This document shows positions 13,038 to 24,524 of a stretch of 24,524 nt of DNA, piece after piece. Position 1 is the first letter of the stretch; each line of letters starts with the position of its first letter. The notes beneath the pieces were generated by a model. The model was given only the letters and a program-made list of their open reading frames with translations, was not told the origin of the DNA and did no database searches. Location: the IMG/VR virus record IMGVR_UViG_3300030109_000339, positions 1-24,524 of that record, one strand, 5' to 3'. This DNA is from a virus. The translations under genes were made by a program, and so were the position numbers.

Positions 13038-13189
13038 GTCCTAGAAAAATGAAAGCATCTGGAATTAAAAAAATGAGAGGTGGTGGCATGGCTATGAAAC
13101 CAAAAAAAATGCGTGGCGGTGGAATGGCTAAGAAAATGCGTGGTGGTGGAATGGCTATGAAGAAAATGAAAAAAGGTGGTAAAGCCTAA
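13028..13189 (+). CDS. 53-residue Met/Gly/Lys repeat protein
   Basis: A short ORF starting seven bases after AGGAG (13017-13021) and ending on a TAATG overlap with the next gene. Residues 16-46 hold three repeats of K-M-R-G-G-G-M-A (beginning at 16, 28 and 37) separated by Lys-rich linkers. The protein is about one-quarter Lys and one-quarter Met, with no hydrophobic core, so it is expected to be disordered and cationic. Similar Gly-triplet/Met/Lys tails occur in several other small proteins here. I recall such repeats from marine phages without function. Confidence 0.65.
   Translation: MAMSPRKMKASGIKKMRGGGMAMKPKKMRGGGMAKKMRGGGMAMKKMKKGGKA
13073..13165 (+). repeat. Three in-frame imperfect repeats coding KMRGGGMA
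   Basis: Imperfect direct repeats begin at 13073, 13109 and 13136. Each codes Met-Arg-Gly-Gly-Gly-Met-Ala followed by a Lys-rich spacer of variable length. The DNA of units two and three is nearly identical (ATGCGTGG, then GGTGGAATGGCT), while unit one uses AGA for Arg. This pattern suggests recent duplication of units two and three. Confidence 0.85.
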
Positions 13190-13857
13190 TGACCACTTCA
13201 AGCTCTACTGACTTTAATTTAGATGTAGCTGAGTACATTGAAGAGGCTTTTGAGAGATGTGGCTTAGAGGCTAAAACTGGTTATGATTTGCAAACTGCTA
13301 GGCGTTCTTTAAATATTATGCTTGCTGAGTGGGCAAATCGTGGCCTTAATCAATGGACTATTGAGCAAAGAACTCAAGCATTGACATCAAATGATTCAGA
13401 GTACAGCTTGTCAACAGATATAATAGATATTTTATCAGTGGTTGTAAAAAGAAGTGGCACGGATTTTAGCATGACTAGAATTAGCAGAGATACCTTTCTT
13501 AATCTACCAAACAAGACATCAACAGGTAGACCAACACAATATTTTTTGGATAGACAAATAACTCCTAATCTAAAATTATACCCAACACCCGAAAACAGCA
13601 CAGATGTTATTGTCTTTGATGCTTTAACAAGGATGCAAGACGCTGATACGCAAGTTAACACTCTTGAGATACCCTTTAGATTTATACCTTGTCTAACAGC
13701 TGGATTGGCTTATTATATAGCTATGAAAAGAGCACCCGATAGAATACAACTTCTTAAATCTGTGTATGAAGAAGAGTTTGAAAGAGCGATGGCTGAAGAT
13801 AGAGATAGATCAGCATTTAATGTAACACCCAAACTTGATTATTATAGGGTTGGATAA
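13189..13857 (+). CDS. Head-tail adaptor (P22 gp4-like)
   Basis: A 222-residue protein expected to sit under the portal and start the neck. The N-terminal segment, with VAEYIEEAFERCGLEAKTGYD followed by TARRSLNIMLAEWANRG, is the helical region I recognise from P22 gp4-type adaptors in marine podoviruses. A beta region with NLKLYPTPENSTDVIVF and a C-terminal helical part (AYYIAMKRAP to YRVG) follow. T7 gp11-like adaptors have comparable layout and are the alternative. It is the first gene of the neck block after the basic-protein cluster. Confidence 0.7.
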   Translation: MTTSSSTDFNLDVAEYIEEAFERCGLEAKTGYDLQTARRSLNIMLAEWANRGLNQWTIEQRTQALTSNDSEYSLSTDIIDILSVVVKRSGTDFSMTRISRDTFLNLPNKTSTGRPTQYFLDRQITPNLKLYPTPENSTDVIVFDALTRMQDADTQVNTLEIPFRFIPCLTAGLAYYIAMKRAPDRIQLLKSVYEEEFERAMAEDRDRSAFNVTPKLDYYRVG

Positions 13858-14171
13858 TGCCTTTTGCTAGTGGTAAATATGCTTATAGAATATCAGATAG
13901 GTCTGGTTTTAGGTATCGTATTAAAGACACAAGAAAAGAGTGGAATGGTTCAGTAGTAGGTAAAGACGAATATGAAGAAAAGCACCCACAATTAGAGCCA
14001 GTAAGATCAACGCCTGACGCTGAGGCAATTCAAGATGCAAGACCAGATATTAAAGATGATAACAAAAAGTTTATATTGTACACTAATACTGGTTTAGGCA
14101 ACTTGGGAACTTTATTAACAACATTTAGTGCCACAACTTCTGTTGGAACAGTTACAGTGAGTACATCATGA
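13857..14171 (+). CDS. Small neck-associated hypothetical protein
   Basis: A 104-residue protein beginning on a TAATG overlap. The N-terminus is distinctive: FASGKYAYRISDRSGFRYR, then EWNGSVVGKDEYEEKHPQLEP. This fits a conserved marine-phage protein I recall between adaptor genes; the function is unproven. The C-terminus is Thr/Ser/Gly-rich and strand-like (TTFSATTSVGTVTVSTS). It ends four bases into the next ATG (ATGA). It is likely a minor virion protein at the head-tail junction, by position. Confidence 0.75.
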   Translation: MPFASGKYAYRISDRSGFRYRIKDTRKEWNGSVVGKDEYEEKHPQLEPVRSTPDAEAIQDARPDIKDDNKKFILYTNTGLGNLGTLLTTFSATTSVGTVTVSTS

Positions 14172-14815
14172 GTTTTACATTAACAACACTTACAGCTTCA
14201 GTACAAGAATGGACGCAAAATGACGAAAGTACATTTGTTGCTGAGATACCATTTTTTATTAAAAATGCAGAAGAAAGAATATTTAAAGTTGTTGACTTAG
14301 AATATTTTAGAAAAAATGCCACAGGTACTATGACAAATGGCAATAAATTTTTACAAAAACCATCAGATTGGTTAGCAAATTTTTCTTTGTCTTTTGTAAA
14401 CTCTAGTAGTGAAAATGTTTTTTTATTACAAAAAGATGTAAACTATTTACAAGAATTTCATCCTAATCCAGCCACAACTGGAACTCCAAGGTTTTACGCT
14501 TCTTTTGATGTAGATAATTTTATCGTTGCACCAACACCAAATAGTAATTTTACTGTTGAGGTGCATTATTATTATAGACCAACTTCATTGACAACAGATG
14601 GTTCTGGCTCAACGTGGATTAGCACAAATGCACCAGATGCTTTGTTATATGCAACTCTCATAGAAGCATACACATTTATGAAGGGTGAAAATGATTTATT
14701 ACAACTTTATACAGCTCGTTTTACTGAGGCCATTAGTAGATTAAAAATATACGCAGAGGCTAAAGAAAACACAGATGCTTATAGGGAGGGATTAGTAAGA
14801 GTTCCAAATCAATAA
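14168..14815 (+). CDS. Conserved neck/adaptor structural protein
   Basis: A 215-residue protein very common in marine phage genomes as I recall it. It has an N-terminal helical part, then FIKNAEERIFKVVDLEYFRK, a beta-rich middle with EVHYYYRPTSL, and a C-terminal helical block with APDALLYATLIEAYTFMKGE then YTARFTEAISRLK. The helix-barrel-helix layout matches small adaptor or stopper proteins of the neck. Assignment as an adaptor comes from the family pattern and position between gp4-like and tail genes; the exact role is inferred. Confidence 0.75.
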   Translation: MSFTLTTLTASVQEWTQNDESTFVAEIPFFIKNAEERIFKVVDLEYFRKNATGTMTNGNKFLQKPSDWLANFSLSFVNSSSENVFLLQKDVNYLQEFHPNPATTGTPRFYASFDVDNFIVAPTPNSNFTVEVHYYYRPTSLTTDGSGSTWISTNAPDALLYATLIEAYTFMKGENDLLQLYTARFTEAISRLKIYAEAKENTDAYREGLVRVPNQ

Positions 14816-17086: not shown

Positions 17087-20000
17087 ATGGCGAACATTAC
17101 TGGTTGGGGTCGAGGTGCATGGGGTGAAGGAGCGTGGAACGCTCCCATACCTGTTGTTGTATCTGGAATAGAGCAAGTTACCAATGGAGAATTTGACTCT
17201 GATACTACTGGCTGGTCAACCAGTTCTAATTCTAGTGCCTCTGTCAGTGATGGTATTGTTACAATTACTGCAAATCAGTATCACACTTTTAGTCAAAATT
17301 TAACTTTAGACGCTGGTAGAAGCTACACAATATCAGTTTTAGTAACGGCTGAAACAGGCAGTTTTTTTGTTGCTATCCACGATGGGTCTAGTGTAACAGA
17401 TTATGCAAATGTAGCTGTTGGGACAACTACTCTTACTTTCACGGCAAACAGTGGTACAAATCAACTTAGATTATACCCTTATTCCTCTGGCACTGGTCAT
17501 GTTTTATCAGTTGATTCAATTTCTGTTAAAGGTGCTGTTGAAACTGAAGGCACGACATCAGTAGGAACTGTAACTGCACTTCCTGCAATTACAGTTGCAG
17601 TAACGGGTGTTGTTGGAACTACTGCTGTTGGCAGTGAAACTGTAGCCACAACACAAACTGTAGCATTTAGTGTTACTGGCGTTTCTGGCACAACTTCAGT
17701 TGGCAGTGAAACTGTAGTCCCACAATGCGTAGTTAGTGCAAGTGGTCATCAAGCCGTTGGTAATCCAGACTTAGCTGGAGCATTTCATGCCGAATGGTTT
17801 GTGCCTACTGATAGTAATGATCCTACAGTAAAAGTCATTTCCTATGAGGCAACCACAGAAGTATTTTCAGATGGATCTTCGTTAGGAACAATTTCTTCTG
17901 CTGGGGGTACTTTAGATGTCGCTGCTTCTAATTATGAAAATAAGTTAATATCGGCAGATAAGCCGATAACACTACAAAATACTAACAATGAGTCAACTGG
18001 TGTTCCAACTTCTTGGGCTGGAACTTCTTTTGGTTTTTTCAATTCTCGTACTGGTTTTATACTACAAATGAGAGCTTTGTATGGAACGGCAGAGGTTAAA
18101 ATATTTAAAGATGGTTCTTTAAATGCAACAATTTCTGTTGGTAGTACGTCAACTACAACTCAAACTTATGCTGACGATTCGAGTGATCCACAATACACAG
18201 TCTTTTCTGATTTACCTATTATTGTTTTCAAAACTGGTAATGCAGATTTAAGCACAGATACAAGACCAGCTTTTCCTGCAACCACAGACTTTTTATATGG
18301 CATAGCGAGTGGGAGTGCACAAGCTGTTAGAGTTGATGGATATGGAGAAACTGCAACTAGCTTTACAAGATTTGACAGTAATGGTGGTTCAAACAGTAGC
18401 ACTATTAGCACAACGAATGGTAGTTTTGCAAATGGCACTGATTTTACTGGACCTACAAATAGGTATCAAACAGCGTCAAGTTCCTCTGGTTTTTCAATAG
18501 CTGATTCAGATGGTGGAGAAAAAACATCATTTATTGCAGAAGGCTGTTTTGCACATGAGTTTAGATTAATAGAAGCAGCAGAGTTTGTTTGTTTTATGGG
18601 AGCACCAGGAACAAATGGTCGTAACATACAAGTTTTTAATTCAAGTGGAAATTTAGTTGATACAGTTCAATTAGCCACAAGCGATACAGGATCTGATTTT
18701 CCTACAAATTTTCAACTTATTAGTAATTCTACAACGGATAGTAATCTTACGGGATCAGCAAAAAGTTATGATTTAACTGCTGGAATGAGGTTTGTTTCTG
18801 AAGTTCCAGTAGGTGCTATTCTTGAGGATGATAGTGCAGACAATGAAGAGAATCTTTTTGGACTAAGAAATTTTGCTGGATTTATGACAGGAACTTCGGT
18901 TGTTGGTGTCACTGGCGTTGAAGGAGTATCTTCCGTTGGCGATGAAGCTACAATACCTCAAGGCGTATTTACTGCATCAGGTGTAGTAGGAACAAGTGCA
19001 GTGGGAACTGCAACGGCTGCTCCTCAAACAGTTGTTTCTCTTACATCTGTAGTTGGAACAACAGCACTTGGAAGTGAGGCTACAACGGGACTTGCAACAT
19101 TTTCAGTCACTGGCGTTGAAGGCACTGGGCAAATTGGAGATGAAATAGCCTTTTCTAACGTAGTTGTTGTTGAAACTGGGTTGACTGGCACGACTGGATT
19201 AGGAAGTGTAACAGCCTTACCTTCAATAACATTTGAAGCCTCAAGTCAAGTTGGCACGACTGGATTAGGCACTGTAACAGTTTTACCTTTAATAGAATTT
19301 TCCGTCACTGGAGTTGCAGCCACTACATCATTAGGCACTGCAACAGCCTTACCTTCAATAACATTTGAAGCTGCTGGATTTGCAGCCACTGGTTCAGTTG
19401 GTGACGTATTAGCTGCTGGTGGAGCTAAAGTTACTGAAACAGCTTTAACTGGAACTGTTAATATTGGTGACGAAGCCGTAAGTGGTGACGCTAATTTATC
19501 TGTCACGGGTGTGTCCGCTACTGGAGGTATAGGTAATACAGATACTGGAACTATTACTTTTACCATTACAGTAGCCTCTAAATCATCATATGACTCTGGT
19601 AGTAGTAACGCCTATTATATAAACGGAGTTGAACGTCCAGTTTTGACATTGGTTGAGGGTAAAACTTATAGGTTTGATCAAAGTGATTCTTCAAATGGCA
19701 CAGGTGGAGCACACCCTCTACGTCTTTCTACAACTGCAAATGGAACACACGCAAGTGGTTCAGAATACACAACTGGTGTAACAACATATGGAACACCTGG
19801 AAGTTCTGGTGCTTATACAGAAATTACTGTGGCTAGTGATGCTCCTACGTTATATTACTACTGTACTAACCATAGTAATATGGGTAACACTGTCTTTACT
19901 TCTGATTCGATTTTTAACGTAACAGGTGGCTCAACTGTTGTTCCAAGTGCGGCTACAAGTACAAGTGCAGTGGGAACAACTACTGTTCTTACAGTCACAC

Positions 20001-20287
20001 CAGTAAATGTAACAACAGTTGTTGGAACAACGTCTTTGGGCAATGAATCTATTTTAGCAATCAACAACATCAGTATAACTGGAGTTGAGGCAACTGGAGC
20101 ACTAGGAATTATAAATTTATACGGACTTATTGCCAATGAGACTTCTGTAAGTTATACTGAGGTCACAGGTGCAACAACAAGTTATACTGAGGTCACGGGC
20201 ACAACAACAAGTTATACTGAGGTCACAGGTGCAACAACAAGTTATAGCACGATAAGTCCATCACAAAGTCCAGAATGGGCAGCATGA
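17087..20287 (+). CDS. Modular tail adhesin with repeats and cupredoxin-like domain
   Basis: A 1066-residue tail protein, probably surface exposed and host- or glycan-binding. In order: a WGRGAWGEGAWN motif (7-18); a domain at about 28-147 resembling CBM4/9-type carbohydrate-binding modules (VTNGEFDSDTTGWSTS start); about 20-residue repeats of the form VTGVxGTTxVGxxTV (about 150-215); a large non-repetitive domain (about 218-598); about ten more repeats (about 603-815); a cupredoxin-like domain (about 825-940) with His876, Cys926, His929 and Met932 placed like a type-1 copper site; two further repeats; and a C-terminal TSYTEVTGAT tandem array. AAAAGG lies seven bases ahead of the ATG. Confidence 0.8.
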   Translation: MANITGWGRGAWGEGAWNAPIPVVVSGIEQVTNGEFDSDTTGWSTSSNSSASVSDGIVTITANQYHTFSQNLTLDAGRSYTISVLVTAETGSFFVAIHDGSSVTDYANVAVGTTTLTFTANSGTNQLRLYPYSSGTGHVLSVDSISVKGAVETEGTTSVGTVTALPAITVAVTGVVGTTAVGSETVATTQTVAFSVTGVSGTTSVGSETVVPQCVVSASGHQAVGNPDLAGAFHAEWFVPTDSNDPTVKVISYEATTEVFSDGSSLGTISSAGGTLDVAASNYENKLISADKPITLQNTNNESTGVPTSWAGTSFGFFNSRTGFILQMRALYGTAEVKIFKDGSLNATISVGSTSTTTQTYADDSSDPQYTVFSDLPIIVFKTGNADLSTDTRPAFPATTDFLYGIASGSAQAVRVDGYGETATSFTRFDSNGGSNSSTISTTNGSFANGTDFTGPTNRYQTASSSSGFSIADSDGGEKTSFIAEGCFAHEFRLIEAAEFVCFMGAPGTNGRNIQVFNSSGNLVDTVQLATSDTGSDFPTNFQLISNSTTDSNLTGSAKSYDLTAGMRFVSEVPVGAILEDDSADNEENLFGLRNFAGFMTGTSVVGVTGVEGVSSVGDEATIPQGVFTASGVVGTSAVGTATAAPQTVVSLTSVVGTTALGSEATTGLATFSVTGVEGTGQIGDEIAFSNVVVVETGLTGTTGLGSVTALPSITFEASSQVGTTGLGTVTVLPLIEFSVTGVAATTSLGTATALPSITFEAAGFAATGSVGDVLAAGGAKVTETALTGTVNIGDEAVSGDANLSVTGVSATGGIGNTDTGTITFTITVASKSSYDSGSSNAYYINGVERPVLTLVEGKTYRFDQSDSSNGTGGAHPLRLSTTANGTHASGSEYTTGVTTYGTPGSSGAYTEITVASDAPTLYYYCTNHSNMGNTVFTSDSIFNVTGGSTVVPSAATSTSAVGTTTVLTVTPVNVTTVVGTTSLGNESILAINNISITGVEATGALGIINLYGLIANETSVSYTEVTGATTSYTEVTGTTTSYTEVTGATTSYSTISPSQSPEWAA
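17530..20115 (+). repeat. Array of about 60-bp coding repeats in the adhesin
   Basis: Three blocks (about 17530-17750, 18895-19545 and 19920-20115) code degenerate copies of VTGVxGTTxVGxxTV. Some copies remain near-identical in DNA: a 29-base segment at 19211-19239 recurs at 19343-19371, 132 bases later. The blocks are interrupted by a large unique domain and by the cupredoxin-like domain. Recombination between copies could alter domain content. Confidence 0.8.
20151..20246 (+). repeat. Tandem 30-bp repeats, 3.2 copies, at adhesin 3' end
   Basis: Units begin at 20151, 20181 and 20211, each 30 bases and starting GTTATACTGAGGTCAC, with a partial fourth unit (GTTATA) at 20241. Units one and three are identical, and unit two differs at three bases. 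Each codes SYTEVTGATT in frame, so changes in copy number would keep the frame. Confidence 0.95.
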
Positions 20288-22141: not shown

Positions 22142-22708
22142 ATGCCAATAACGTCTTTAAAGTTCAGACCAGGTATTAACAAAGAAACAACGTCTTATAC
22201 GAACAAAGGTGGGTGGAACGATTGTGATAAAGTTCGTTTTCGTTTTGGTTACCCAGAGAAACTTGGTGGTTGGGAAAAATATTCACCAAACACTTTTCTT
22301 GGAGTCTCTCGATCTTTACACGCTTGGGCAAATCTGCAAGGAAATGAGTATTTAGGTGTTGGAACAGAAATAAAATTTTATATTGAAGAGTCACAAAGTT
22401 ACAATGATATCACGCCACTAAGACGAAAAGTGCTTAATGGTGAGGTCGTGTTTGATATAAATGGCAATGCTATTGCCTTTGCCGTGACTGGCGTAACAGG
22501 AACCACGGGTCTTGGAGAAGAAGTGATAAACGCACAATCTAATGATACATTAGCTCCAGCTTTACCAACTGGTGTGAGTTCGACTGGAGAAATTGGCACT
22601 GTTACATTTAACTTAGAAAATCCTGCAATGGCTAGTGCGTTGGGTGAAGTTACTATTGAAACGACCAATGGAGACGTAACTGTAACCGATTTTAGGAATG
22701 AATCTTAA
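22142..22708 (+). CDS. N-terminal part of tail hub/tube protein, ending in adhesin-type repeats
   Basis: A 188-residue protein. Residues 1-95 have the conserved start of P22 gp10/T7 gp12-like tail proteins as seen in marine phages: LKFRPGINKETTSYTNKGGW, RFRFGYPEKLGGWEKY, LGVGTEIKFYIEE and YNDITPLR. From about 110 it changes to VTGVTGTTGLG and PTGVSSTGEIGTVTF, which are repeats of the neighbouring 1066-residue adhesin. The stop is in a TAATG that starts the next gene, which looks like the continuation of the same family. The gene therefore appears divided at a repeat insertion. Confidence 0.75.
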   Translation: MPITSLKFRPGINKETTSYTNKGGWNDCDKVRFRFGYPEKLGGWEKYSPNTFLGVSRSLHAWANLQGNEYLGVGTEIKFYIEESQSYNDITPLRRKVLNGEVVFDINGNAIAFAVTGVTGTTGLGEEVINAQSNDTLAPALPTGVSSTGEIGTVTFNLENPAMASALGEVTIETTNGDVTVTDFRNES

Positions 22709-24524
22709 TGGCAATTACTTTTATAACTGCAACTGATAGCACAACTGTAACTGTAAATGATGAGTCTCATGGTGCGTTGGTGGGAGATTTTGTTACATTT
22801 GCAAATGCTAACACTGGTAATTCAACTTTAAACGCACAACTGGACATAGAACATGAAATACAAAGTGTTCCTACAAGAAACACTTACACAATAACTTTAG
22901 CATCAAATGCTGCTGCTGCACTGTCTAGTGCGGGCTCAGTTAATGCAGATTATCAATTAAACATAGGCATAAATACAGTTGTTCCAGGAAGTGGTTGGGG
23001 TGCAGGACCTTGGAATGGTGAGTTAAACACAACGACTTTATCTACAACTTTAGCAGAGGAACTAGAGAAAGATGAAACGGCAATAGATGTTACAGATGCT
23101 ACAGGTATTGCAAGCACTGATGTCATTCAAGTAAGAGGGGAGCTTATGCTTGTTACAAATGTAAGCACTAATACCTTAACTGTTACAAGAGGGCATGGAG
23201 TCACAACTCAAGTAAATGACGAGGCAGGTGTTGGAACTCCTGCAACTATTACTCCTAACACAGTTCGTTTAGCTTTAGGTAATGCCGCAGCAAGTGATGA
23301 TTATGTTACTTTGATTAATGGTAGTGATTTAACTTCAGACACTTCGGCAACTACAGTGACTGTAGACTCAACTGCATCATTTGAATCAAGTGGTTTTTTA
23401 AAAATAGAAGATGAAATAATACAGTATACAGGTAAAACAAGCACAACTTTTACTGGTTTAATTAGAGGTAGTGCAGGCACAACAGCTACAACTCATGCTG
23501 ATAATGTTGCGGTCTTTGAGGCTAGTGGTGGAATTGGTATAGAGGCAACTGAAACAGCAGGCACGGGTGGCACTTTACGTTTATGGTCACAAGATAATTT
23601 TGGTGAAGATTTAATCTTTAATGAACGAGATGGTGCTGTTTTTTATTGGGACAAAACATTGGGACTTACTTCAAGAGCACAAAATTTAATAGAACTGTCT
23701 GATCAAGCACCAACAAAATCAAGAAAAGTTATAGTGTCTGAAAGAGATCGTCATGTTATTTGTTTTGGTGCAAATCCAATAGGTCAAACTGCACAAGACA
23801 GATTGTTAATTAGATTTAGTTCGCAAGAAAACCCATTTCTCTGGACTCCTACTGCAACCAATACTGCTGGTGACTTAAGAGTAGGTTCTGGTTCTGAAAT
23901 TATTACGGCAGTTAAAACAAGACGAGAAATGATTGTATTGACTGACACTTCTGTGTTTTCAATGCAATTTATCGGTCCACCTTTTACTTTTGGTATTAAT
24001 CAACTTGCTAGTAACATTACTGTTCGTGGGTTTAATAGTGCTGTTGCCGTAGGTGACGCTGTTTTTTGGATGGGATATGATCGTTTTTATATTTATGATG
24101 GTCGTGTTCAAGTTATCCCTTGTTCTGTTAGAGATCATGTTTTTCAAGATTTTAATGAAACACAAACTGATAAAATATATGCAGGTGTAAACTCAGCTTT
24201 TGGAGAAGTGTTTTGGTTTTACCCATCACAAACAAATTCTCTATCAAATAATGGCACTGGCGAAAATGACAAATATGTGGTTTATAATTACGACCAAAAA
24301 ATTTGGTATGTCGGTAGTCTTGCACGGAGTTCTTGGATAGACAGAGGTGTATATCAATACCCAATGGCAACAGACTCTAATCTTGTCTACAACCATGAAA
24401 AAGGTAATGACAATGATGGCACTGCGTTTACATCATTTATAGAATCGAGTCCTATAGACATTCAAGATGGAGATCAATTTGTATTTTTAAGACGAATGTT
24501 ACCTGATGTAAGTTTTGACAATAG
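22708..24524 (+). CDS. C-terminal part of tail hub/tube protein (P22 gp10/T7 gp12-like), runs off window
   Basis: An open frame from the ATG at 22708 to the end of the window with no stop (605 codons seen). The N-terminal MAITFITATDSTTVTVNDES then SHGALVGDFVTF is normally internal in relatives as I recall them. Then come a GWGAGPWNG motif (about 94-102) and two copies of a 45-50-residue beta module (about 120-170 and 212-262). The hub body follows: LRLWSQDNFGEDLIFN, WTPTATNTAGDLRVGSGSEI, MQFIGPPFTFGIN and DKYVVYNYDQKIWYVG. It is likely a propeller-like tail nozzle or hub protein. In-frame TGA at 22699-22701 prevents any start further upstream. Confidence 0.85.
   Translation, partial: MAITFITATDSTTVTVNDESHGALVGDFVTFANANTGNSTLNAQLDIEHEIQSVPTRNTYTITLASNAAAALSSAGSVNADYQLNIGINTVVPGSGWGAGPWNGELNTTTLSTTLAEELEKDETAIDVTDATGIASTDVIQVRGELMLVTNVSTNTLTVTRGHGVTTQVNDEAGVGTPATITPNTVRLALGNAAASDDYVTLINGSDLTSDTSATTVTVDSTASFESSGFLKIEDEIIQYTGKTSTTFTGLIRGSAGTTATTHADNVAVFEASGGIGIEATETAGTGGTLRLWSQDNFGEDLIFNERDGAVFYWDKTLGLTSRAQNLIELSDQAPTKSRKVIVSERDRHVICFGANPIGQTAQDRLLIRFSSQENPFLWTPTATNTAGDLRVGSGSEIITAVKTRREMIVLTDTSVFSMQFIGPPFTFGINQLASNITVRGFNSAVAVGDAVFWMGYDRFYIYDGRVQVIPCSVRDHVFQDFNETQTDKIYAGVNSAFGEVFWFYPSQTNSLSNNGTGENDKYVVYNYDQKIWYVGSLARSSWIDRGVYQYPMATDSNLVYNHEKGNDNDGTAFTSFIESSPIDIQDGDQFVFLRRMLPDVSFDN

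Follow-up and report, generated by a model that had tools for sequence, protein, structure and literature searches.

Fission of a tail nozzle/hub gene at a repeat-bearing insertion site in uncultured marine short-tailed phages

The nozzle, the ring protein through which DNA leaves the tail, is a central component of all short tails, and the solved nozzles found here are all single chains. In the window analysed here (the whole stretch of 24,524 nucleotides of IMG/VR record IMGVR_UViG_3300030109_000339, from a group of uncultured marine short-tailed phages), the corresponding gene lies in two cistrons, with adhesin-like repeats at the join. The locus raises the question of whether a nozzle gene is genuinely divided, and how its two products might form one hub. 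A first-pass annotation, made from the letters alone, had reported two open reading frames (ORFs) in different frames, overlapping through TAATG, and both ORFs exist as described. The features of the locus are as follows.

17087..20287, + strand: adhesin-like protein with related repeats (tail fibre PHROG 30742 in its C-terminal part; repeat alignment)
22142..22708, + strand: first cistron, nozzle/hub N-chain, 188 aa (PHROG 3287 positions 6-123, N-core profile, dN/dS of the core)
22475..22705, + strand: repeat tail of the N-chain, degenerate VTGVxGTTGLG-type, adhesin-related (alignment, dN/dS)
22694..22697, + strand: Shine-Dalgarno-like AGGA, 10 nt 5' of the second ATG (sequence; sites in other junctions)
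22706..22710, + strand: TAATG overlap, stop of cistron 1 and start of cistron 2 (sequence; identical in contig L001)
22708..24524, + strand, continuing past the window end: second cistron, nozzle/hub C-chain (PHROG 3287 positions 107-369)
22708..22959, + strand: small beta-barrel domain opening the C-chain (weak PF12195 match, residues 7-77, below cut-off; alignment)
23041..23526, + strand: two small RG..GT..H modules 3' of the barrel, the first identified by eye (PHROG 2885 match, residues 207-273)
23584..24522, + strand, running beyond the window: main propeller/platform core of the nozzle (PHROG 3287, E 1.6e-52; C-chain model against nozzle structures)

Family and fold of the two parts

In the first cistron, residues 1 to about 93 are the N-terminal core of the family and the repeat tail follows; the C-chain comprises 605 aa within the window and 683 aa in L001, a different IMG/VR contig. 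One family, PHROG 3287, matches both ORFs, the first at positions 6-123 and the second at positions 107-369 (E 1.6e-52), and both parts are homologous in sequence to the podovirus nozzle/hub family of P22 gp10, SU10 gp17, and T7 gp12. A family profile search retrieves 9nwi_Y (Pa223, E 1.9e-26) and 8zkk_O (VP1, E 5.2e-14). The fold agrees with this assignment. An AlphaFold2 model of a single-chain relative, L124, made with 89 family members (pLDDT 87.7, pTM 0.87), has the full-length propeller and platform fold, with Z scores of 22.9-32.2 against nine podovirus nozzles; the best matches are Pa223 (9nwi_Y, 32.2), VP1 (29.0), the SU10 nozzle (28.7), and P22 gp10 (25.3). By sequence and fold, the divided gene belongs to the nozzle/hub family, as the earlier gp10/gp12-like assignment had proposed. 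The genomic context is that of a tail module, with two SU10_adaptor matches (13189 and 14168) and a portal homologue at 1821. The two SU10-type adaptor genes (13189-13857 and 14168-14815) are different from each other, and since both have counterparts in cultured relatives, the pair is normal for the group.

The L124 model aligns with seven-bladed WD proteins over its residues about 42-515; a break near residue 94 therefore falls within the propeller. It follows about the first sixth of the chain (about 94 of 636 residues in L124), not the N-terminal third that the annotation had assigned to the first gene. The model of the window C-chain matches nozzle structures more weakly than L124 does (Z 20.7, with a high rmsd; pLDDT 72, pTM 0.47, large low-confidence inserts). 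It aligns from about nozzle residue 90 onward (P22 91-472, VP1 99-518, SU10 from 527 or 531), and the C-chain alone aligns to about 203 residues of the WD protein 8a98_Sg, compared with about 274 for L124. Because of the pTM of 0.47 and the low-confidence inserts, the argument that the C-chain misses a blade is weak taken alone.

Divided and single-chain relatives

A scan of IMG/VR yields 80 close loci, and the two parts are separate ORFs in all 79 that hold both. Cultured homologues (HTVC023P, HTVC027P, CRP-901, DSL-LC04, 023Pt_psg01, and MinM2) have single genes. After further scans the set comprises 445 loci (240 single, 185 divided, and 20 partial), counted as loci and not as independent viruses, some being one contig retrieved twice. 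In every divided locus having both parts, the N-core and the C-core are adjacent. The view that the family is one uninterrupted chain thus holds for relatives outside the group but fails for the closest ones, 79/79 of which are divided. The annotation had also held that homologues all divided at this site without the repeats would speak against its proposal; the close homologues are indeed all divided, yet they carry repeats. Division is accordingly old and conserved, and seemingly arose twice, rather than being the recent local accident that had been suggested.

Errors that break a single gene by an indel do occur in this family. In L333, for example, considered as a candidate division, two overlapping frames encode one and the same peptide, and both repeats and a start are lacking. 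It is a plain frameshift in a single-chain hub gene, probably an assembly error, which contrasts with true division and is excluded from the divided set. That the window join is a sequencing or assembly error of this kind is scarcely conceivable, as L001 is identical over the join (1 mismatch in 6817 bases, outside both genes), 79/79 relatives are divided, and the junctions combine three frame relations with a conserved start site.

The only two matches in bacterial genomes, L445 and L446, are MAG contigs labelled Woesebacteria and Rickettsiales whose single-chain hub genes belong to this phage family; they are probably phage contigs binned into MAGs. As both are single chains without the array, they give no pointer to the host.

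Division is constantly linked to a repeat array. About 77 C-terminal residues of the first ORF are degenerate VTGVxGTTGLG-type repeats, in line with the tail of about 75 residues noticed at first reading and likened to the adhesin at 17087. The alignment score of the tail against that adhesin is 78, whereas 1000 shuffled tails have a mean of 50 and only one reaches 78. At the DNA level, exact matches between tail and adhesin gene are only 10-11 bases, none being longer than 11, and a recent copy of the adhesin DNA is rejected on this ground. Of the suggestion that recombination through the repeat split the gene, the constant link of repeats with division fits, but long DNA identity to the adhesin is absent. 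The adhesin itself has four tandem SYTEVTGATT-like units at about 20150-20260, followed by SQSPEWAA at its end.

In single chains the N-core continues directly into the small beta-barrel, for example as DITPL-ATAITGATFTSTNGSSTVTVN in HTVC023P. The second ORF of the window begins at the barrel, with MAITFITATDSTTVTVN, which in the alignment is the point where N-core and barrel meet in single chains. Between N-core and barrel, 44/44 true divided clusters have an insert of 82-252 aa with adhesin-like repeats, and 123 of the 156 single-chain clusters have 5-12 aa. The remaining single chains have either a different insert of 57-83 aa, mostly an RG..GT..H module, or the array of the L175 group, in which like repeats of 107-113 aa stand unbroken at the same place. 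Since the L175 group keeps its array in a single chain, the array does not compel division. In L187 and its kin, and in L304-L327, the break lies within the array; both chains bear repeats in L187 and its kin and in L312-L326. The natural reading of this series is that the array was gained, then broken inside, and then broken at the barrel edge; separate gains of the array in different lineages may also have occurred. As regards the classification, recognition of linker repeats by regular expression was too noisy, and a barrel profile was used instead. Because the automatic 'array' label for single chains also takes in RG modules, the true single-chain array clusters, six in number (L175, L373, L374, L376, L377, and L440), were chosen by reading.

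The position of the RG..GT..H module (PHROG 2885/4406-like) in the hub differs by phage (the window, L083, L081, L085, and L171): it lies before the barrel in CRP-901, within it in HTVC023P, and after it in 023Pt_psg01 and, twice, in the window. The modules after the barrel are missing in most close relatives of the window. The module looks like a mobile domain.

Start of the second chain, selection, and number of fissions

The 78 distinct junctions have stop-to-start distances of -1, +1, +3, +7, +10 and others (-1 to +11) and cover all three frame relations. Of these junctions, 67 have an SD-like site 4-16 nt 5' of the start, compared with 27% at other ATGs of the same genes; by a stricter 4-base match the figures are 49/78 and 10%. 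In the window, no slippery heptamer of the form X XXY YYZ is present at 22641-22715, and a TGA at 22699-22701 ends the C frame 6 nt ahead of its ATG. These features bear on the alternative that one protein is made across the join by programmed frameshifting or stop readthrough. ORFs that abut or overlap by a few bases would suit such a product, as would the one junction type where only one stop separates two parts in the same frame. It is nevertheless very improbable: programmed frameshifting goes with a slippery site and a fixed frame relation and neither is found, the gaps range from -1 to +11, the TGA leaves only 6 nt in which to shift, L019 has tandem stops (TAA TAA ATG), and the SD-like sites are conserved. 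The SD-like sites, the lack of a slippery heptamer, and the closed C frame together indicate that the second chain starts on its own beside the end of the first, and the two chains may be translationally coupled in the true sense. An intein or intron between the parts is rejected, as gaps of -1 to +11 bases leave no space for one.

Pairwise dN/dS in the window clade is 0.089 for the N-core, 0.084 for the C-core, 0.19 for the barrel, and 0.57 for the repeat tail. The low values in both cores indicate that both parts are maintained as working proteins, while the tail changes fast. Equal purifying selection is, however, also expected if the two chains acted apart. It could be, for instance, that the C-chain alone is the nozzle and the N-chain has turned into a separate adhesin or decoration outside the hub, a role to which its fast-evolving, adhesin-like tail would be suited. 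This arrangement is unlikely, because the N-core retains the family residues under a constraint close to that of the C-core, the two cores are adjacent in every divided locus with both parts, and the C-chain alone would lack the first propeller strands.

In a C-core tree of 169 rows, the divided genes then in hand form one clade (50 rows, SH-aLRT 100). In a tree of N-core plus C-core with 200 rows, built after later scans, 42 of the 44 divided clusters group together as a clade (SH-aLRT 100), and L328 and L331 make up a small second divided lineage that branches among single chains. With 58 rows, the hypothesis that all divided genes share one clade is rejected by an AU test (p 0.0176). Division has thus probably arisen twice, the second lineage being independent. 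These trees lack outgroup rooting, which would leave room for a reversed history in which two genes are ancestral and single chains are later fusions. That history is extremely improbable, as P22 gp10, SU10 gp17, VP1 gp16, and Pa223, all of them solved relatives from outside the family, are single and align end-to-end with L124, and the divided genes are tips among single chains. The core tree of the clade implies 17 or more changes of junction type, compared with a mean of 23.8 and a minimum of 18 in shuffles. These changes hint at frequent exchange of a cassette of tail and junction, but do no more than hint, as the tree within the clade is poorly resolved.

A proposed two-chain nozzle subunit and known systems

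Gene fission itself is established, as are the common family of the two parts, the conserved division, the link to repeats, the start signal, and selection on both cores. The view of the annotation that the two chains must co-assemble is a sound inference. We interpret the locus as a fixed fission at a repeat-bearing insertion site, by which two coupled proteins jointly form a single beta-propeller hub whose variable repeat tail is free, and give this reading as a whole a probability of roughly four in five. It would have come about as follows: A propeller loop that accepts added domains, after the N-terminal platform and first propeller strands, may have gained an array of adhesin-like repeats, within which or directly after which a stop and a new start may then have become fixed. 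The N-chain would end in a free repeat tail and the C-chain would open at the beta-barrel, initiated from its own SD-like site near the stop of the N-chain so that both products are made together. The chains would fold onto each other and complete a single subunit of the tail ring, a seven-bladed propeller. The likely gain is that a long, fast-changing surface appendage need not exit and re-enter the propeller at adjacent points; the ring position (a hexameric ring on the adaptor in the nozzle/hub family), the surface exposure, and the benefit of the tail are predictions of this scheme. Tentatively, one may go further and imagine an obligate two-protein nozzle subunit, one blade region of its propeller supplied in trans by a short protein with an exchangeable fibre-like repeat tail, with at least two fissions serving to release from the ring a fast-evolving appendage for host contact.

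In these phages a core part of the short tail is divided stably, and seemingly repeatedly, inside its propeller and always at a repeat array. The loci offer a natural series for how a gene of a large symmetric machine undergoes fission, from the insertion of repeats through a break within them to a break at the domain edge, with the L175 group as the surviving single-chain intermediate, and predict a split propeller that folds in trans. Automatic annotation would label the first gene as an unrelated small protein. No report of a divided nozzle/hub was found in the literature searched, which covers the field in part.

Several known hubs can be compared with the window. P22 gp10 and T7 gp12 have the same overall fold (P22 Z 25.3; T7 by Foldseek, E 2e-15), but they are single chains, and the repeat tail is absent at this place. 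Pa223 (9nwi_Y) and VP1 gp16 (8zkk) come closest both in sequence (E 1.9e-26 and 5.2e-14) and in fold (Z 32.2 and 29.0), yet they are single chains of 512-521 residues without a large insert at the site. The hubs of HTVC023P, HTVC027P, CRP-901, DSL-LC04, and MinM2 are true homologues in the same tail neighbourhood, with capsid proteins 55-72% identical to that of the window, but each is one gene of 622-731 codons. SU10 gp17 (PDB 7z47, 7z4b; PMC9509320) is alike in its platform and propeller fold (Z 28.7 for the whole L124 model), and SU10-type adaptor genes are also present in the window. In SU10, the nozzle domains that become extended during infection form an insertion between blades 2 and 3 (PMC9509320). 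As judged from alignment ranges, not per residue, the break of the window lies in the region that matches this insertion (in SU10 it takes up the residues from the end of the N-core to about 527), so that large domains are inserted in the propeller at a matching site in both. SU10 gp17 is, however, one chain with four Ig-like nozzle domains, whereas the window has a repeat array and a barrel, and the chain is cut there.
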